Made by a program: the position numbers and the translations under genes | The notes under the pieces: generated by a model | Told to the model about the DNA's origin: nothing | Seen by the model: only the letters and a program-made list of their open reading frames with translations | The model's database searches: none | From: Aerococcus viridans | Lineage (GTDB): Bacteria; Bacillota; Bacilli; Lactobacillales; Aerococcaceae | Length of the DNA: 64,000 nt | Direction: 5' to 3' | NCBI RefSeq assembly: GCF_001543285.1 | Contig: NZ_CP014164.1 | Coordinates: 186,001 to 250,000 of the forward strand | Part shown: one piece after another, positions 4,239-55,606 of the stretch | Layout: every line of letters begins with the position of its first letter | Position numbering within the stretch: the first letter of the stretch is position 1

Positions 4239-4730
4239 ATGAAAGATAAATCAATTTGGATTGATCAATTTAAAATGGAAGGACACGAAGAGGGTGGCTT
4301 TTTCTACCAAGTGATGAAATCTGACCAACGTATCCAATTAGAAGAACAGCCAGAAAGAGCCTTATATACCAGCATCTATTTCCTATTAACCTCAACAAAT
4401 GTGTCACGATTCCACCGTTTAACAGCGGATGAAGTTTGGTATTATCACTATGGTAGTCCACTGACTGTGCATATGATTACCCCTGAAGGAGAATACCAGC
4501 AAATTACCCTGGGTACAGACGTTGAAAACGGCCAAGTATTACAAGCCGTTGTGCCTAAAAATACGATTTTCGGGTCAAGTGTTGAAGAATTGGATAGCTA
4601 TTCACTAGCATCATGCATGGTTAGTCCAGGATTTGAATACGATGACTTTGAACTATTCAAACGATCAGATTTACTGAATCAATATCCAGATTATGCGGAT
4701 ATTATTCACCGACTAACCCTAGAAGACTAG
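4239..4730 (+). CDS. Cupin domain protein (cupin_5 / DUF985 family)
   Basis: A 163-residue protein of the cupin_5 (DUF985) family, a small beta-barrel fold whose members have no agreed function. The conserved core FHRLTADEVWYYHYG covers residues 58-72 and supplies the His and Glu typical of a metal-binding cupin; a second His is at 78. ATG at 4239 is chosen because GGAGGTG lies seven bases upstream; the longer frame from 4089 has no ribosome site and a non-family N-terminus. It is a single-gene unit with a terminator downstream. The enzymatic role is unknown. Confidence 0.85.
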   Translation: MKDKSIWIDQFKMEGHEEGGFFYQVMKSDQRIQLEEQPERALYTSIYFLLTSTNVSRFHRLTADEVWYYHYGSPLTVHMITPEGEYQQITLGTDVENGQVLQAVVPKNTIFGSSVEELDSYSLASCMVSPGFEYDDFELFKRSDLLNQYPDYADIIHRLTLED

Positions 4731-4898
4731 GATTTCTGGTCTGCTTAAGAGATTCGTAACTTATTCATCACAAAATCAACACAATTTTGATTGAGATTTT
4801 CACTAAATCTTCAAAGGTATCGCTTATTATATAAGCATACCCAATAAAGAAACCAAACTTTTCTTCATAAATCTTTCTCCTCCCAAAACGAAAGATGA

Positions 4899-4934
4899 CA
4901 AAAAACCAGCTGACTCCCAACGGCTGGTTTTTTA
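4899..4934. terminator. Bidirectional terminator
   Basis: Stem AAAAAACCAGC / GCTGGTTTTTT with A and T tracts on both sides, so it can act on either strand. It lies downstream of the cupin gene. Confidence 0.75.
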
Positions 4935-5073
4935 ATGCCCATATTTGAAAATAGACATAGAAATATTTTTGGCAATACAAACTATTTTATAGACCATAGG
5001 TGAATAAGCTTAAGCAAAGACTACATTTTATATTCAATAATCTTGAAGATCCTTATTTATGGATTATTATTTA

Positions 5074-5104
5074 TTGAGAAATTCCAAGTCATGAGATCTG
5101 TAAT
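5074..5104 (+). promoter_or_regulatory. Possible promoter of the 5109-5287 RNA
   Basis: TTGAGA at 5074-5079 and TGTAAT at 5099-5104, each one mismatch from consensus, but with a long 19-base spacer. Transcription would start near 5111, just at the base of the predicted fold. Suggestive only. Confidence 0.3.
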
Positions 5105-5108
5105 ATCA

Positions 5109-5287
5109 AAGCTAAGGCTGACGCTTTCCTAGCATGCCTTAGCAGTAAAAAGGAGGGATGGCCCACAACAATCTGTTTGGCGTGTACGCCTTACAGATTG
5201 TGTCGCCAGACAAGTCTTCAGATCGAGACTGAAGAAGGTCCTACTGCTTTTAAGGCAATGATAGGAAAAAGCAGAAGCCGAATGCTT
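5109..5287 (+). ncRNA. Candidate structured non-coding RNA, family not identified
   Basis: The gene-free stretch 4731-5320 contains a segment that closes on itself by nested helices read directly from the sequence: 5109-5112 with 5284-5287, 5116-5119 with 5276-5279, 5125-5131 with 5262-5268, 5136-5141 with 5251-5256, and 5142-5147 with 5242-5247. Inside are a purine-rich stretch (5148-5160), a long hairpin (ACAATCTGT 5168-5176 with 5193-5201, capped by GGCG/CGCC) and a smaller hairpin (CTTCAG 5216-5221 with 5229-5234). A closing rod, an open centre and a small hairpin on the 3' side recall 6S RNA; other families such as raiA are possible. No long reading frame covers it. The strand is inferred from a weak upstream promoter. 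Confidence 0.5.
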
Positions 5288-5320
5288 ACTAAATTACTAC
5301 ATAATGTATAAATACTACTT

Positions 5321-6085
5321 CTATCCCTTTCTCGTGATAAAGTTGAAATGTCTACCAAGTGTTTTGTCTAAGCGGTATGAAAAACCATCAACCATTTCGA
5401 AAGTATCTTGGTCAGATACTGTAATATTGTTTTCCAAGACACCAACTCGTTTTAACTGCTCTGCAACCGTCGCCTGGTTGTCTACTAAGTATTTCTGGCC
5501 TTTGTCATCCCATTGAATAAAATCATCCGCATAACCAAGCGCCTTGAATTGGTCAGCAACATCTTTGTCCACTTCAAAAGATTTCTGTGCAATCGAAGGA
5601 CCGAGAATAGCTTTGATGTTACCCATGTAAATATCTGGGTTTTCATTTTTGATTTGTGCAAAAGTGGCTGACACGATATCTTGAACAGTCCCTTTCCAGC
5701 CTGAATGGATGGCACCAATTAAACCAGTATCTTCGTCATAAAAAATCACAGGCACACAATCTGCCGTAAAGACGCCAACAACCACATCGCTTTCGTAAGT
5801 GTACAAGGCGTCCACATCATCCACTGCATCTTCAGTTGACAGACTACCGCGCCCCCGGTCCCCAACTGTGACACGATAAGCTTTTTTGGAATGGGTTTGA
5901 TTAGCGAAAACGAACTGGTCGACGTCAACCTGTAATGCATCCGCTAAAGTTCGTCGATTTTCTACAACTTGCGTTGCGTCTTCCCCCGTATGTAGAGCTA
6001 AATTGCCGTTAAGGGTTTGCTGGTTGTCTTTTAAAGTCGTACCAGCAATTAAGTTTTCTGGTGTGTCATAGAATTGGATCGTCAT
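5321..6085 (-). CDS. pgeF: Peptidoglycan editing factor PgeF / multicopper polyphenol oxidase family (laccase domain)
   Basis: A cytosolic protein of the YfiH/PgeF family, whose bacterial members hydrolyse wrongly incorporated residues from peptidoglycan precursors and have also been reported as purine nucleoside enzymes. The 254 residues show the three conserved metal ligands: His65 (ANQTHSKK), Cys110 (FTADCVPV) and His127 (GAIHSGWKGT). ATG at 6085 was chosen over the ATG at 6094 because AAAGGATGA lies with proper spacing only before the former. It is a monocistronic reverse-strand gene. Family call is firm; the physiological substrate here is inferred. Confidence 0.9.
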   Translation of the reverse strand: MTIQFYDTPENLIAGTTLKDNQQTLNGNLALHTGEDATQVVENRRTLADALQVDVDQFVFANQTHSKKAYRVTVGDRGRGSLSTEDAVDDVDALYTYESDVVVGVFTADCVPVIFYDEDTGLIGAIHSGWKGTVQDIVSATFAQIKNENPDIYMGNIKAILGPSIAQKSFEVDKDVADQFKALGYADDFIQWDDKGQKYLVDNQATVAEQLKRVGVLENNITVSDQDTFEMVDGFSYRLDKTLGRHFNFITRKG

Positions 6086-6201
6086 AAGGTTCATCCTTTC
6101 TGCTTTCAGTTACGTTTATTATAGCAAACAAGCACTCTGACTAATAAAGTCCTACAAAAACTGTTAAAATATAAGAAAATGACCGATAAGGAGATAATTG
6201 T

Positions 6202-36556: not shown

Positions 36557-37326
36557 TATAATTCCCCGCTTACAACTTTATCTATTTCTTTTTTGAGGTA
36601 ATGCATAACATGTTCCTCAATCTCGATCATTTCTTGTTTATGTTCTTCTCGTGGTCGAGGAATATCCACTTTAATGTCTGTTAAAATGACACCGGGTTGT
36701 GTTCCCAACACGATAATTCGATCTGACAGTTTAATTGATTCAGTTATGCTATGTGTAACAAATAAGATGGTCTTTTTCGTGTCACGCCAGATGGATTCTA
36801 ACTGTGTGTGCAAACGAGAGCGAGTCTGTTCGTCCAAGGCACCAAAGGGCTCGTCCATTAGTAACAGTGTCGGATCCATTGCTAGCGCTCTAGCGATGGA
36901 TACACGTTGCTGCATGCCACCTGAAAGCTCATGTGGATAATGATCAAGATAATTGGTTAACTGAACCATTTTCAAATATTTTTTGGCTTGTGCAACAGCG
37001 TCACTTTTTGACATCTCTTTTTTTAATGGGAAAATAACATTCTCTTTAACGGTTAACCAAGGGAATAAAGCCGGTTCCTGAAAAACCATACCTCGATCTT
37101 TACCGGGTTGTGTTATTGAATGTCCATCAATAGTTATCGTGCCACTTGTTGCCGTTGTTAATCCAGCTACGATTGAAAGTAGAGTGGATTTACCACAGCC
37201 AGATGGACCGAGGATAGAAATGAATTCCCCTTTTTCTACATCTAACTGTATATCGCTCAAAACAGTCGTGGTACTATTATTTTGATCTGTAAATTGTTTA
37301 TTTAAATCTTTTACTTCTAAAAACAT
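36556..37326 (-). CDS. NitT/TauT-type ABC transporter ATPase (SsuB-like)
   Basis: A 256-residue ATPase. Walker A GPSGCGKST (40-48), signature LSGGMQQRVSIARALA, Walker B LLLMDEPFGALD, and the His switch in FVTHSITES. First gene of the reverse-strand operon. ATG 37326 is chosen because AGAGGTG lies six bases upstream; the in-frame GTG... start at 37335 overlaps that site. A T-box leader precedes it. Confidence 0.92.
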   Translation of the reverse strand: MFLEVKDLNKQFTDQNNSTTTVLSDIQLDVEKGEFISILGPSGCGKSTLLSIVAGLTTATSGTITIDGHSITQPGKDRGMVFQEPALFPWLTVKENVIFPLKKEMSKSDAVAQAKKYLKMVQLTNYLDHYPHELSGGMQQRVSIARALAMDPTLLLMDEPFGALDEQTRSRLHTQLESIWRDTKKTILFVTHSITESIKLSDRIIVLGTQPGVILTDIKVDIPRPREEHKQEMIEIEEHVMHYLKKEIDKVVSGEL

Positions 37327-37454
37327 TTTATTCACCTCTTTCTATTACAGAATATTATTCACCAAACTCACACTTGTCATTTCTCCTAATCATCCAACAC
37401 TCCCCATTTAATTGTCTAATCTCAAACGACTACTATTAGAATTGCTCGCTCTTA

Positions 37455-37735
37455 TAAACAAAAAACGCCTCTCCTATCAGATTATCTCTAACAGAAGGGA
37501 CGAAAAATCGCGTTACCACCCTAATTTCTATTATCCTTACAAATAATAGCTCATCAGTATCTACTAATACTGTACACGATATCGGGTGTAACCGTCTAAA
37601 CAGCGTTAACCATTTAAACTGCTCCAAACTCATCTTCACCTAATCTTAAACTACCCCTTCTCACCAAACAGGGCTCTCTTATAATCGTTAAGCATTTAAG
37701 TTACTCTTCTCTTCATTGCAGTCATTTATTGATTA
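37455..37735 (-). promoter_or_regulatory. T-box riboswitch, probable methionine (AUG) specifier
   Basis: On the reverse strand the leader shows Stem I elements in order: GAAGAGTAAC near its start, AGAGAGCC, GGTGAGAAGG, and the specifier region GGTGAAGATGAG before TTGGAGC. The conserved T-box AGGGTGGTAACGCG is at about 37508-37521, followed by a terminator stem ending in GCGTTTTTTG at about 37457-37466. Reading the specifier by the GAA-N-codon rule gives AUG, thus tRNA-Met; other readings cannot be excluded. Uncharged tRNA would allow expression of the SsuABC-like operon. Confidence 0.85.
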
Positions 37736-37741
37736 ATTTGT

Positions 37742-37770
37742 ATACTAATGGTTTTGATTAAAATTGTCAA
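37742..37770 (-). promoter_or_regulatory. Promoter of the T-box-controlled ABC operon
   Basis: Reverse strand TTGACA (37765-37770), 17-base spacer, TAGTAT (37742-37747). Start predicted near 37735. Confidence 0.8.
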
Positions 37771-38005
37771 TGTTTTAAATTAAAATATTTTAATCGATTT
37801 TCTAGATAAAGTCCGTATAATTGTGTAAAAGTAAAAAGGCCATATAACAGTCCTTTTACGGTACAATGTTTGGCTCTTCGACATTTAATGTGGATAGCTT
37901 AATTTAAGCAAGAAACTTAAATTCATTTTATATGGATTTGAGTTTCTTTTTTATTTTATTTTAAATGAGATTTGATAAAAGAAGAACTATCTTTTTTGTC
38001 CTTTG

Positions 38006-38127
38006 AACTGCTGTGTACGTTCCTTAAGAGCCGTGACACCGGCGAGAGCCAAGGTCTCTCTGCCTTGATATCGAGCCAAGGTCTCGATATCATGCTTTTT
38101 CACGGCTAAGGACGTACACTTGCAGTT
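38006..38127. repeat. Branched inverted repeat (three-way fold) inside the ISL3 element
   Basis: AACTGC, GTGTACGT, CCTT and AGCCGTGA (38006-38036) pair in order with TCACGGCT, AAGG, ACGTACAC and GCAGTT (38100-38127). The enclosed part forms two hairpins, GAGAGCCAAGGTCTC (38044-38058) and GATATCGAGCCAAGGTCTCGATATC-like arms (about 38068-38091), whose loops share the same GAGCCAAGGTCTC sequence. A run of seven T follows on the plus strand. It lies about 40 bases beyond the transposase stop codon and could act as terminator, RNA or recombination site. Confidence 0.7.
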
Positions 38128-38167
38128 TTTTTCTTTGAACATAGCGAGCGGGATGTATCATGTTTAT

Positions 38168-39493
38168 TTAATTAAGGGAAGCGGGCTTGCCCGGTTTTAA
38201 AATGAAACTAATCATCACCCTATTTCTGAAATTGAAAAAATTTCGATATCCATAGGATACACGTTTTATGACTTTGATACGATTATTTTTTCCTTCTAGA
38301 CTAGCGTTTGATCTAGTCTTGTAATGGAAGGTGTTTGCGATAAACGCTATATTCTTCAATAATGTGTTCAGTGAGGTTTGCATATATTTACTGATATTTT
38401 GGTGACGTTCTGCAGTAATAGTCTCATGAAACATTTCGATATTATTTTCTTTAGAAGCCTCTAGTAAAGCTTGATATACCCAGTAATTTTCCGTTAAATC
38501 CTCATCTAAAGAAAGTAGATGATCAAGAATATCCATATCACAAACCATTTTCCCTTTAAATAAACGTTGTTTTCTATAATTTATAAAATCAACTTCGTTG
38601 AAATCCTTTAGGATAAGCTTCCAAAAACTTTTCAGCTTGCGATACTCTTTTTTATCTTCACCATTATTTCTATTTATATTGAAAGTATTCATTACTTGAA
38701 CTCTCGTTTTGTTTAAAGAACGTGAAATCAATTGAATGATATGAAAACGATCAATAATTACTTTGGCGTTTGGAAACATTTCTCTAACCAAAGTCATATA
38801 AGGCGCATTCATATCAACAACAATGGTTTCAACAGCAGAGCGCTCTTTTAAACTAAATTGGCGGAAGTATTCTCTTAATTTGTATAGTTGTCGAGTGGGC
38901 AGTATACCAAGAACTTCATGAGTCTCCTCATTACTAAAAATAAAACTCATTTGATTGTCAGCTTGTTTTGTAGATTTGATCTCATCGAAGCACATGTGTT
39001 TCGCTAGTTTTGTGCGATTGCGACGAAAATAGTCATCCATAAAGCGATTAATAATTCGTCTACTAGTATTATCTGAGATACAGTGCCTACGAGCGAGATC
39101 CTTGTTTGAAATCGTATCTGCAGCCTCAACTAAAACAGATTGCTTCACTTGTTTAGCGATATGACAATTACGTGCAACCTCACTGGTATGAGCAATGAAG
39201 CGCTCATCGCATTCATGACACCAGAAGCGTTGCTTCTTAAGCTCTAGATAGGTTGGTGTATTGGATTGGCGTAACCACGTGATCCTGGACGTCATAAACC
39301 CATCTTTAACGATAGAATGGTCATTTACACAACCACATTTAGGGCAAGCCTTGGGCTTGTAGGTTAACGTGCCAGTAAAAACTTTTACATTTATTCCTTT
39401 AATATTACGCTCTTGAATCCAATTTTCTTCGTTAAATGTGATGTTAGTATCCTTAATGTTTAGTAAAAGTCTGATATTATCGTTCTGAGACAT
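38168..39493 (-). CDS. ISL3-family transposase
   Basis: A 441-residue transposase. N-terminal zinc ribbon pairs CPKCGC (about 50-55) and CHEC (about 92-95), a helix-turn-helix segment, then the DDE_Tnp_ISL3 domain with Asp in MCFDEIKS, IVVDMNAPY and VIIDRFHIIQ and the C-terminal SNASLEGKNNRIKVIKR block. AAAGGAAATTCAT precedes the ATG. Full length and undamaged. Confidence 0.95.
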   Translation of the reverse strand: MSQNDNIRLLLNIKDTNITFNEENWIQERNIKGINVKVFTGTLTYKPKACPKCGCVNDHSIVKDGFMTSRITWLRQSNTPTYLELKKQRFWCHECDERFIAHTSEVARNCHIAKQVKQSVLVEAADTISNKDLARRHCISDNTSRRIINRFMDDYFRRNRTKLAKHMCFDEIKSTKQADNQMSFIFSNEETHEVLGILPTRQLYKLREYFRQFSLKERSAVETIVVDMNAPYMTLVREMFPNAKVIIDRFHIIQLISRSLNKTRVQVMNTFNINRNNGEDKKEYRKLKSFWKLILKDFNEVDFINYRKQRLFKGKMVCDMDILDHLLSLDEDLTENYWVYQALLEASKENNIEMFHETITAERHQNISKYMQTSLNTLLKNIAFIANTFHYKTRSNASLEGKNNRIKVIKRVSYGYRNFFNFRNRVMISFILKPGKPASLN

Positions 39494-39663
39494 ATGAATT
39501 TCCTTTCTAATTTTGGTTTAGACGCTTAAATTTTAGCATAGGAAATATTCATATGTCTTTTTGTGTTTTTATACAAAATAGGTTTGAATGATTTCTCATC
39601 CACACCAAAAGTCGGAGACCCCAATGTTTTTAACGACAAAAACATACCCAGGAGGACTTTTAC

Positions 39664-40836
39664 ATGACCCAAGTACATTTTACACTGAAAAGCGAAGAGA
39701 TTCAAAGCATTATTGAATATTCTGTAAAGGATGACGTTTCTAAAAATATTTTAACAACGGTATTTAATCAACTAATGGAAAATCAACGAACAGAATATAT
39801 TCAAGCAAAAGAATATGAACGAACAGAAAACCGACAAAGTCAACGAAATGGCTATTATGAGCGCAGCTTTACGACACGTGTAGGCACGCTAGAATTAAAA
39901 GTACCCAGAACACGTGATGGTCATTTTTTACCCACAGTGTTTGAACGTTATCAACGAAACGAAAAAGCCCTCATGGCTTCAATGTTGGAAATGTATGTAT
40001 CAGGCGTTTCAACTCGTAAAGTATCAAAAATTGTGGAAGAACTTTGTGGTAAATCCGTCTCTAAGTCCTTCGTTTCTAGCTTAACAGAACAGCTAGAACC
40101 TATGGTTAACGAGTGGCAGAATCGTTTATTATCAGAAAAAAATTATCCTTACTTAATGACCGATGTACTCTATATAAAAGTACGAGAAGAAAATCGAGTA
40201 CTCTCAAAAAGCTGTCATATAGCGATTGGAATAACCAAAGATGGCGACCGTGAAATTATCGGCTTCATGATTCAAAGTGGCGAAAGCGAAGAGACCTGGA
40301 CAACATTTTTTGAATACCTAAAAGAACGCGGTTTACAAGGTACGGAACTCGTTATTTCTGATGCGCACAAAGGATTAGTCTCTGCCATTAGAAAATCCTT
40401 CACCAACGTAAGTTGGCAAAGATGCCAAGTTCACTTCCTAAGAAATATCTTTACCACCATTCCTAAAAAAAATTCAAAATCTTTCAGAGAAGCTGTTAAA
40501 GGAATTTTTAAGTTCACAGATATTAACTTAGCGCGTGAGGCTAAAAATCGATTGATTCATGATTATATCGATCAACCAAAATATTCAAAAGCTTGCGCAT
40601 CATTGGATGATGGATTCGAAGACGCCTTTCAATATACCGTACAAGGAAATTCCCACAATCGACTAAAGAGTACCAATCTAATTGAACGACTGAATCAAGA
40701 AGTACGCAGAAGAGAAAAGATTATTCGCATCTTCCCCAATCAAACATCAGCCAATCGCTTAATTGGAGCCGTTCTTATGGACCTGCATGATGAATGGATT
40801 TATTCTTCAAGAAAATACATCAATTTTGATAAGTAG
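39664..40836 (+). CDS. IS256-family (mutator-type) transposase
   Basis: A 390-residue mutator-type transposase. Recognisable blocks: RNGYYERSFTTRVGTLELKVPRTR (about 58-82), the DDE core with Asp in LMTDVLYIKV and VISDAHKGL, and Glu in NLIERLNQEVRRREK with the IRIFPN motif. CCAGGAGG precedes the ATG by eight bases. The gene is intact although the 5' end of its element is displaced by the ISL3 insertion. Confidence 0.95.
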   Translation: MTQVHFTLKSEEIQSIIEYSVKDDVSKNILTTVFNQLMENQRTEYIQAKEYERTENRQSQRNGYYERSFTTRVGTLELKVPRTRDGHFLPTVFERYQRNEKALMASMLEMYVSGVSTRKVSKIVEELCGKSVSKSFVSSLTEQLEPMVNEWQNRLLSEKNYPYLMTDVLYIKVREENRVLSKSCHIAIGITKDGDREIIGFMIQSGESEETWTTFFEYLKERGLQGTELVISDAHKGLVSAIRKSFTNVSWQRCQVHFLRNIFTTIPKKNSKSFREAVKGIFKFTDINLAREAKNRLIHDYIDQPKYSKACASLDDGFEDAFQYTVQGNSHNRLKSTNLIERLNQEVRRREKIIRIFPNQTSANRLIGAVLMDLHDEWIYSSRKYINFDK

Positions 40837-40899
40837 AAATGGTAAAAACATTGTATAGCATTTTACACAGGAGTCTGGACTTGACTGGTGAAAATGAAT

Positions 40900-42381
40900 A
40901 TGAAGGTCTATGAATTACTTGAACAAAGTGGTGTAACAGCTAGAAATCCTTTACCAGCAGATGTAGAGCAACTTGAAATTACCGGCATTAGTGAATCCTC
41001 CTTACAAGTAACCAATGGCCATCTATTTGTCGCCATTTCCGGTTATGCCACTGACGGTGAAGCCTATATCGGTAATGCCATTGAACGCGGCGCTAGCTTG
41101 ATTGTGACGGAATCTGACTTAACCGCTAGGGAGAATGTGCCGTTTATCCAGGTTGACAATGCTAGAGAGCGTTTATCCCTGCTTGTATCAGCTTTTTATC
41201 ACAATCCTAGTCAAGACAAGTTGGTAATAGGGATTACAGGAACTAACGGCAAAACGACCACCGCTTTATTCTTACAGCATTTACTAAAGAAAGCGGGGTT
41301 TGAAGTAGCTTACTTTGGGACCGTCTATAATGAAATCACCTGTCAACGGTATGAAAGCAAATTAACCACGCCAAGTGCGACAGAAATTCAAGCATCCCTG
41401 GCCTGGTCAAATGACGATGTAGTGGTTATTGAAACTTCTAGTCAAGGACTCCACCAATATAGAATGGCAGGGATGCAATTTGACTATGCCTTATTTACCA
41501 ACCTACAACACGACCATTTAGACTACTACAAGACCATGGAAGCTTATTACCAAGCCAAGAAATCCCTATTCAGCTTAATGAAAGCGGACGGGAAGGCCGT
41601 CATCAATAGCTATACCATGTGGGGCAACCGCCTAGCCAAAGAACTGGCAGCAAATGGTAAACAAGTCTTAACCGTAGATACTAAGAAAGGTGCGACAAGT
41701 TATGTCTTAGATAAAACAACCGACACAGCAGTTGTTGCCTTCAATGGACAAGGCGGACAAATTGAAGAAATCGAAGCGCCCTTATCAGGTGTTTATAACC
41801 AAGAAAACCTGATTTTAGCCACAACCGTCATGGTTGACCTAGGATTAGACGCTGGCAATACCAACGAGGCAATCGCAGACTTTGCGGGAATTGCAGGCCG
41901 TTTGGAATACTATCCACTAGCAGACGGCAATGAAATGGTCGTCGATTATGCCCACACGCCGGATGCCATTGAAGCCCTATTAACAACCCTAAACGCCCAG
42001 TACCCAAACCACGAGATTATTCATATCTTTGGATTTAGAGGGCAGCGGGACACTAAAAAATTCCCGCAAATGGTGTCCGCCTCGCAAACTGGGGCCGACC
42101 TAACCATACTAACCACTGACGACTTAAATGGTGTCCCCAAACAAGTCATGGCCGAAAAGTATCTTGAATACGTGACCCAATATGGGTTAGACTCTATGGC
42201 TATGGCACTAGACCGGGTTGAAGCAGTTGAGTTAGCCTTAGAAATGTCCCCAAATCCGGTATTTTTAGTCCTTACCGGTAAAGGCCACGAAGCCTACTCC
42301 GAGGTAAACAAATATGGCGTGCAATCTGACCAGCAAGTCGCCCACATGTTTCGCTACCGTCAAGTCAGCTATTCAATGTGA
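40900..42381 (+). CDS. MurE-family UDP-N-acetylmuramoyl ligase (MurE2-type)
   Basis: Mur ligase of 493 residues. N-terminal MurE domain, ATP loop GITGTNGKTTT (about 110-120), central ligase domain with HDHLDYYKTMEAY, and C-terminal domain with GRLEYYPLADG. It resembles the second MurE copies of lactic acid bacteria. The amino-acid-selecting motif of true MurE (DNPR for diaminopimelate, DNPA-like for lysine) is replaced by TTDDLNGVPKQ, so the added residue is uncertain. ATG 40900 is preceded by GGTGA at eight bases; in-frame GTG 40888 and ATG 40894 are alternatives. The right end of the IS256 element lies about 15 bases upstream, so transcription must start in or beyond it. Confidence 0.85.
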   Translation: MKVYELLEQSGVTARNPLPADVEQLEITGISESSLQVTNGHLFVAISGYATDGEAYIGNAIERGASLIVTESDLTARENVPFIQVDNARERLSLLVSAFYHNPSQDKLVIGITGTNGKTTTALFLQHLLKKAGFEVAYFGTVYNEITCQRYESKLTTPSATEIQASLAWSNDDVVVIETSSQGLHQYRMAGMQFDYALFTNLQHDHLDYYKTMEAYYQAKKSLFSLMKADGKAVINSYTMWGNRLAKELAANGKQVLTVDTKKGATSYVLDKTTDTAVVAFNGQGGQIEEIEAPLSGVYNQENLILATTVMVDLGLDAGNTNEAIADFAGIAGRLEYYPLADGNEMVVDYAHTPDAIEALLTTLNAQYPNHEIIHIFGFRGQRDTKKFPQMVSASQTGADLTILTTDDLNGVPKQVMAEKYLEYVTQYGLDSMAMALDRVEAVELALEMSPNPVFLVLTGKGHEAYSEVNKYGVQSDQQVAHMFRYRQVSYSM

Positions 42382-52869: not shown

Positions 52870-52924
52870 TTTGCGATATTTTTCAAATCATAGTTGAGGT
52901 AAAATAAACCATAGTTAAATGAAT

Positions 52925-52974
52925 AAATAGCGGGTAAAGATTCTTAAACAAAATCCTTACCCGCTATTTTTCTC
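52925..52974 (+). terminator. Terminator after nusG
   Basis: Thirteen-base stem AAATAGCGGGTAA / TTACCCGCTATTT followed by TTCTC. The remaining gap to 53170 shows no gene. Confidence 0.88.
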
Positions 52975-53169
52975 TATTAATCAATATTCATTTTCTAATT
53001 GTTTATTTTTTATCCTTCCAGCGGTAAAGATACATGTATTTTAAAATATCGTACAATATATAACCGGAAATTACCGCATGCATAAAGGGGAATGTGTATA
53101 GTGAACAAAAACTACCATTAAAACGTAAAACGTTAGAGAAGAGGCGAATGAGAAACCGAAGATGCACAA

Positions 53170-55430: not shown

Positions 55431-55439
55431 GAGTGAGGT

Positions 55440-55566
55440 TATTTATATAGCTTACCGAAGACAGTTGGCGGCTTTGCCTTAATTTTGCCAACCGAGGGAG
55501 ATACGTTGTTCACTACTAGATGGTGAACTTTATCCTCTATGTCTTCAGTGACATAGAGTTTTTTTA
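55440..55566 (+). promoter_or_regulatory. Ribosomal protein L10 leader with terminator
   Basis: Contains the L10-leader core ACCGAAGACAG...GGCGGC..TTAA..GCCAACCGAGG (about 55454-55497) that binds L10(L12)4, a hairpin GTTCAC/GTGAAC, and an intrinsic terminator CTCTATGTC / GACATAGAG with seven T (55535-55566). Repression by excess L10 complex through termination is the known mechanism. Confidence 0.85.
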
Positions 55567-55606
55567 TTTAAAAAACTCTAATAAAATCAGTGGAGGTGAA
55601 ATATAA

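Follow-up and report, generated by a model that had tools for sequence, protein, structure and literature searches.

The intergenic segment at positions 5109-5287 of the window (viz. the whole stretch of 64,000 nucleotides of the Aerococcus viridans genome analysed here) is a free-standing copy of a family of small interspersed repeats. The explanation that we favour, with somewhat better than even confidence, is that this family is a MITE- or BOX-like structured repeat of Lactobacillales, whose RNA fold has been selected and whose function we infer. The first-pass annotation of this region had put the segment forward as a candidate for an undescribed RNA, which holds to the extent that a real and unannotated RNA-like structure is present here, but this structure is one of dozens of dispersed copies. 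The Lactobacillales thereby gain a strongly supported, apparently unnamed family of structured repeats, and the case also serves as a caution that a single well-folded intergenic segment need not be a unique RNA gene.

Structure of the element in the window

As the first-pass annotation had stated, the segment lies between a Cupin_5 gene and the Cu-oxidase_4 (pgeF) gene and outside of genes, as no listed open reading frame of 80 or more amino acids overlaps it. Its folding energy on the forward strand is -74.0 kcal/mol, compared with -46.5 (sd 3.8) for 200 dinucleotide shuffles (z -7.2), and none of these shuffles was as low, in agreement with the strong folding noted earlier. The long closing stem, the long hairpin (P2) and the small hairpin (P3) that had been described are likewise all present in the predicted fold, whose parts are listed in Table 1. 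However, because the complementary strand folds almost equally well (z -6.6), the strand is not given by the folding energy alone. Further, in the minimum-energy fold of the core by itself, a local GGG/CCC pairing replaces the UGGC/GCCA pairing of lower P2.

Three other proposals did not survive examination. It had been suggested that the element could switch between two pairings; the local pairing GCTAAGGC/GCCTTAGC does exist in the sequence, yet its pairs have an ensemble probability of 0.0, whereas the long-range helix 5136-5141/5251-5256 with which it was supposed to compete has probabilities of 0.96-1.0 for five of its six pairs, and in 19 related copies the switch helix is paired in 66.4% of cells as against 66.8% in shuffled alignments, with no two-sided change. 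The promoter that had been placed in front of the element does not stand out, as 3 promoter-like sites are found in 4700-5500 where 2.5 are expected, and the best score upstream of the window-subclass copies (15 in number) is on average 9.1, versus 9.0 in shuffled sequence. Lastly, the layout had been likened to that of 6S RNA. In Rfam model searches, no 6S or raiA match reached the gathering score in the window or was seen up to E 10 in 4900-5400, and 5109-5287 had no credible match to these or other Rfam families, all of which were rejected as its identity. When 14 related loci were compared with Rfam, the sole match above the gathering score was to a Bacillus-plasmid RNA beside, and not within, a copy in genome G183.

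Table 1. Positions of the repeat element, its parts and related features in the window
Feature	Position	Strand	Remarks
Repeat element, window copy, free-standing and full length	5109-5287	+	Fold and BLAST matches in own genome
Conserved three-way-junction core	5142-5247	+	Core model R2, 88.4 bits, E 2e-20 (window search), the model having been built from an alignment that already contains this copy
P1	5142-5147 with 5242-5247	+	6/6 pairs Watson-Crick
P1b	5152-5154 (GGA) with 5239-5241 (UCC)	+	GCA/UGC or GAA/UUC in other copies
Lower P2	5159-5162 (UGGC) with 5205-5208 (GCCA)	+	Window-subclass consensus
P2 hairpin	5168-5201	+	Stem 5168-5176/5193-5201, apical stem 5179-5182/5187-5190, internal loop UU/UU
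P3 hairpin	5215-5235	+	Stem 5215-5221/5229-5235
5' arm	5128-5141	+	Imperfect pairing with 3' arm
3' arm	5251-5265	+	Imperfect pairing with 5' arm
pgeF (Cu-oxidase_4)	5321-6094	-	Convergent neighbour, stop codon 33 nt from the element
Second, shorter core copy, ISL3-borne	38030-38106	-	R2, 50 bits, E 1.6e-10
ISL3-family transposase gene	38168-39493	-	Core 61 nt past stop, same strand; place G000:224216-224992
Inverted-repeat end of ISL3-type insertion sequence	37872-37894		GGCTCTTCGACATT...

Covariation in the conserved core

The core was aligned from 27 diverse copies by MAFFT on sequence alone, and a structure of 33 pairs was written from the sequences. In these copies 89.9% of the cells are paired, in comparison to 64.8% when shuffled and 34-41% when the structure is slid along the alignment, and 30 of the 33 pairs change on both sides. 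The covariation of 0.633, as against 0.184 for the shuffled alignments, is not reached by any of 500 shuffles, and this figure describes the typical form of the core, since 10 of the 37 sequences in the first core set (in most of which P3 is longer, P1 is shortened or the alignment is awkward) were excluded. Homologues in relatives and compensatory changes in the helices, which had been named earlier as a check on the element, are thus both present, and compensatory base changes beyond chance, by which a functional RNA is commonly judged, are observed in this family.

The consensus consists of P1 (GCNNUG/CANNGC), a bulge, P1b (GGA/UCC, GCA/UGC or GAA/UUC), P2 with an internal loop, and P3. Five of the six P1 pairs show two-sided changes across the family, and the weakest helix is the tip of P2, with 64.5% of its cells paired. 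P3 is capped by a C(YNNG)G-like tetraloop with a bulged A adjoining it, its tip in most of the relatives reading AGAC(YNNG)GCU with the bulged A, and we take this cap to belong to the YNMG class. A similar argument from a tetraloop, for RNA as against DNA, is found in the available text of PMC2864571 for the STAXI motif. The window subclass taken alone, in a set of 19 copies that includes several orthologous near-duplicates, has 16 of 35 pairs with two-sided change and 94.3% of the cells paired; in the same set, lower P2 is paired in 98.7% of cells and the arms, over 10 counted pairs, in 97.4%.

Distribution of the repeat family

A BLAST search of the own genome with positions 5090-5310 gave 24 matches at E<=10, many of them partial, and 11 at E<=1e-3, the query itself being included in both counts. 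At the latter threshold the same query gave 14, 12 and 12 matches in three congeners and 1 match in another genus, so that 5 of 60 genomes, the own genome included, were matched overall. A covariance model of the family made from 19 full-length copies, with matches counted at E<=0.01, found 39 matches in the own genome; of the 33 that are listed, 21 are cores carried by insertion sequences and the remaining 12 are located outside of these. With this model, matches were seen in 9 of 15 genomes of the genus, in 28 of 76 genomes and 14 of 21 genera of the bacterial family, and in 19 of 246 genomes of the order. The core model, made from the 27 diverse copies and with nine candidates scored per genome, matched 53 of the 395 Lactobacillales genomes sampled, in 26 of 80 genera and five families, the fifth through one genome alone (E 4e-5), and the copy numbers in this survey are floors due to the limit of nine candidates. 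In a phylum-wide search the own genome alone matched (1 of 398), but as nine candidates per genome were again scored, this should not be interpreted as showing that the family is absent outside of Lactobacillales. The hosts named among the matches listed (80 loci, of 120 stretches) include several species of Aerococcus and Companilactobacillus, Granulicatella seriolae and Pisciglobus halotolerans, and three of the 80 loci, from Mesobacterium, Rhodopirellula and Metallococcus, have no other part of the core and appear to be chance matches. No match was found for the window segment in plasmid and phage records (blastn), or for the core pattern in viral contigs. The repeats of this family are thus short, non-coding and dispersed in many copies, as is expected of a MITE.

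Several copies depart from the full-length form. In the own genus, the copies at L013, L027, L029, L031 and L096 are truncated or internally deleted; at L142 and L156 of genome G022, a partial copy is directly followed by a full one; and those at L005, L010, L062 and L063 are chimeric, with the 3' arm swapped for other sequence (AAGTTGAGCTC...GGATAGACAGG...), which points to an exchange between this and another repeat family. In the window, a weak match of the core model at 52901-52994 (-) (21.6 bits, E 0.0035) looks like a simple AT-rich terminator-like hairpin and is probably due to chance.

Insertion sequences and small units that carry the core

In the own genome, 22 of the 27 places with an ISL3 transposase have the core after the gene and on the transposase strand, and the other 5 are without it; counted by gene, 21 of 26 ISL3 genes bear the core, and they belong to two types of insertion sequences (IS-A and IS-B). 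IS-A conforms to the ISL3 family in its DDE_Tnp_ISL3 transposase (PF01610, 181 bits), its GGYTCT ends and its 8-bp duplications, which were seen by eye at the ends of all three copies examined (GAATTAAT and GGTTATTT). The core is 88.8% identical between the two types over 125 nt and nothing else is shared by them at E 1e-10 in the stretches compared, and a further locus (L110) has the right-end sequence of IS-A without the core; on both of these grounds, the core behaves as a cassette. For the insertion sequence at 37872-39493 of the window, no second end was found by exact motif in 37000-41000. A T-box match above the Rfam gathering score lies nearby at 37493-37725 (-), 146 nt from the end at 37872.

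A position of the core in front of a terminator was also considered for these insertion sequences and is not borne out on the transposase strand, where no terminator-like site was found between the core and the end of the insertion sequence in the loci scanned. On the opposite strand, P2 together with a T-run has the look of a terminator in each of the three loci scanned, and IS-B has one more such site, reading inwards.

The core is also carried by smaller units. Genome G036 (Carnobacteriaceae) has eight copies of a MITE with GGTTCT...AGAACC ends and a length of about 282 bp (280-288 for the copies in which the two ends were located). Target duplications of 8 bp can be read in seven of these copies, the eighth agreeing in 7 of 8 letters; among the seven, one duplication consists of A alone, another requires a shift by one base and a third was identified by eye. 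Right ends of the AGAGCC type are present in two of three copies in G708 and in three of six in G032, and no left-end GGYTCT was found for the copies in these two genomes. The copies in G183 lie within a different unit with GGGACTGGGA-type ends; L129 and L135 are recent, near-identical 248-bp units with GGGACTGGGA...TTCCCAGCTCC ends that carry the core, and in L129 a Bacillus-plasmid RNA match lies close by. Among 30 further ISL3 loci from 18 repeat-bearing genomes, the core directly follows an intact transposase gene in none; at two loci a copy is found on the other side and in opposite orientation, and one locus is a remnant with a copy downstream. An ISL3 transposase match is absent from six of these 18 genomes (G001, G002, G014, G140, G194 and G153), and in G022, where the repeat is present in at least 32 copies, a short remnant is the sole ISL3 trace.

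History and surroundings of the copies

The window copy has orthologues in three congeners, where the element is 93-97% identical as against 83-92% for the downstream flank; the matched pieces just upstream, at 91-96%, are close to the element. Among the four Aerococcus genomes the element is 93-98% identical. Elsewhere this contrast is lost, the element being just as conserved as its flanks at locus 3 and less so than its upstream flank at locus 4. In genome G009 the cupin-pgeF interval is without this copy, with 65 nt versus 388 between the flanking matches. Another copy, present in G003, is lacking from the corresponding place in G000 and G013 (300 versus 52 nt between the flanking matches), and this empty site is not clean, as its ends are unclear and no duplication could be read. 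The window copy has neither a transposase nor ISL3 ends, and an exact ISL3-type end motif was found within 300 bases of none of 15 copies of its subclass. In these 15 copies, therefore, the matching ends of an autonomous host element that are expected of a MITE were not seen, ISL3-type motifs alone having been sought; in this subclass the arms form the inverted repeats and no target duplication is readable. Due to the conservation of its orthologues and the lack of ISL3-type ends and of a shared promoter, the copy in the window appears long established, and it is probably no longer mobile.

The downstream gene is convergent for 32 of 46 copies, viz. those with two clear neighbours out of 50 (4 overlapped a mechanically called open reading frame). 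In a further count, made by host, the proportion is 13/13 in other Companilactobacillus (3 skipped), 7/7 in Aerococcus HMSC062A02 (6 skipped), 3/4 in two other Aerococcus (1 skipped) and 13/37 in C. nantensis (10 skipped). As the open reading frames were called mechanically and the copies are related, this bias towards convergent neighbours is a lead only. A terminator-like site lies just downstream of 7 of 43 C. nantensis copies on the + strand (0.2 in shuffled sequence) and of 12 of 43 on the other strand; in four other sets, the counts on the + strand were 2/14, 0/11, 1/15 and 2/23.

Strand of the fold and variability of the arms

G-U and A-C oppositions were counted without a folding program. 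In P3, with 74 distinct stems from 176 of 181 matches that could be parsed, there are 18 G-U versus 4 A-C, the remainder of the 368 positions comprising 313 Watson-Crick and 33 other; in 62 distinct arms there are 44 G-U versus 26 A-C, the remainder of the 1116 positions comprising 933 Watson-Crick and 113 other, of which 60 are A.A. This excess of G-U supports, short of proof, that it is the + strand which folds as RNA, since the copies are related and mutation can be strand-biased.

Of 47 distinct C. nantensis copies read, 33 have arms that can be paired without gaps, and between these the identity averages 80% in the core and 38% in the arms (29% is expected from composition), the highest arm identity between two copies being 87%. 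Their arms nevertheless pair, with 530 of 594 positions Watson-Crick, 15 G-U, 7 A-C and 42 other; 30 of these 42 are A.A, mostly beside P1. The copies in G022, as judged by eye, also have variable yet complementary arms. A constant core joined to arms that are specific to each copy and still pair poses a sharp question, viz. whether this complementarity comes from RNA selection on the helix of each copy or from palindrome correction in DNA, and the latter could be the source of part of it. A reading of the variable arms as guides gained no support, as there were no convincing arm-target matches in 300,911 other bases, being a part of the C. nantensis genome; the 17-nt arms of the 33 copies matched these bases no more often than shuffled arms did, with the exception of 13-14 nt, where 3/33 and 1/33 arms were matched versus shuffled means of 1.4 and 0.2.

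Interpretation and rival explanations

According to the explanation favoured here, the + strand has a three-way junction (P1/P1b, P2 and P3) closed by long arms that would serve as inverted repeats. The family would spread as DNA, in part through transposases acting on copies that lack a transposase gene, and the RNA of the + strand would fold wherever a copy lies within a transcript. In the two insertion sequences, the core past the transposase stop is probably a protective structure at the 3' end of the transposase transcript, by analogy with the BOX 3' adducts, for which a protecting role is suggested in the available text of PMC3049150. Alternatively, it would shield the insertion sequence from transcription entering from outside, a role that is considered because P2 and the T-run of the opposite strand read as terminator-like. 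The window copy would be an old resident beside pgeF and, if active at all, probably just a protective or shielding structure in neighbouring transcripts.

The rival to which we give some, though minor, weight is that the element acts at the DNA level as a single-stranded or cruciform structure, recognised e.g. by a transposase, with its arms kept complementary by template switching. The near-perfect palindromic arms that differ from copy to copy, the nearly equal folding of the other strand and the lack of a promoter signal are all in accordance with it, but the excess of G-U over A-C in P3 and the arms speaks against it, as do the C(YNNG)G-like loops and the conserved unpaired bases of the core. 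Also against it, Y1 transposases, which use hairpin DNA, do not track the repeats across genomes and were rejected as the mobiliser: no association with the repeats was seen in the bacterial family, where G001, G002, G013, G024 and G032 bear repeats but gave no match to Y1, and Y1 without any repeat match is the rule in genus g5 (12 of 13 genomes). A further alternative, which appears improbable to us, is that of a new class of mobile non-coding RNA, a three-way junction that would travel both with ISL3-type transposons and without them, in which the hypervariable self-complementary arm would be an individual tag and the constant core would be recognised by a protein, be it the transposase or another, that acts on the RNA or on its DNA; if true, selection would maintain the fold of every one of the dozens of copies in a genome.

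That the core acts as a guide or binds the transposase is conceivable, but we found no support for it. The related proposal that the core is a functional cis part of ISL3-type transposition, where the transposase binds or is guided by the RNA or DNA so that units without a transposase gene keep the core, draws on its retention in two types of insertion sequences and in units with ISL3-type ends. We regard it as quite doubtful, since L110 and 5 of the 27 own-genome places do without the core, 6 of the 18 repeat-bearing genomes are without an ISL3 transposase match, and the C. nantensis arms match the searched bases as shuffled arms do, but for the slight excess at 13-14 nt. It is very improbable indeed that 5109-5287 is a stand-alone small RNA gene of the 6S type: its size, its long closed stem and its high identity in four Aerococcus genomes would suit such a gene, but it has no 6S match in Rfam and no promoter signal, and, whereas 6S RNA is present in one or few copies per genome, this element occurs in dozens, with 39 model matches in the own genome.

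Relation to known systems

A search with subscription papers, preprints and supplements outside its range found no published account of this family, which is apparently undescribed and unnamed. Its kind is already known, and it stands with the MITE-like structured repeats BOX, RUP and bcr1. The bcr1 repeat of the Bacillus cereus group is mobile, of similar size and has a folded RNA form, and differs in belonging to another taxon, the likeness being by description alone. BOX and RUP of S. pneumoniae, compared here by description alone from the available text of PMC3049150, are also interspersed (RUP and most BOX elements being <200 bp), tightly folded with their terminal inverted repeats paired together, MITE-like and over-represented between convergent genes, and some operon transcripts include BOX as an extension at the 5' or 3' end. 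However, BOX is modular (boxA/B/C) and known mainly from the pneumococcus and its near relatives, whereas the present family has a fixed, covarying three-way-junction core in 26 of 80 sampled genera and arms specific to each copy. It is thus set apart by its wide taxonomic span, its constant junction core and its individually varied arms. MITEs of the ISL3 family share the GGTTCT...AGAACC ends and 8-bp target duplications of the G036 units and the AGAGCC-type right ends of some G708 and G032 copies, but the folded core is also found outside such ends, as in the window copy. The omega RNA of IS200/IS605 and the bridge RNA of IS110 are structured, have variable parts and are encoded beside a transposase gene; in contrast, the carrier transposase here is of the DDE-type ISL3 family, the core is missing from a close relative of the carrier and the arms gave no convincing target match.

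Other RNA features of the window

Just upstream of the element, at 4764-4935 (+), lies a multi-copy sRNA-like gene in which a conserved promoter-like region is followed by a hairpin (AUCUUUC-UCCUCCCA-GAAAGAU) with an anti-Shine-Dalgarno-like loop and then by an intrinsic terminator. This gene has no credible match in Rfam, and we take it to resemble the sRNAs of the csRNA/LhrC type; pieces of it match 10 of 15 Aerococcus genomes, some of them with several copies. Further, an L10 leader match above the Rfam gathering score is present at 55437-55574 (+).
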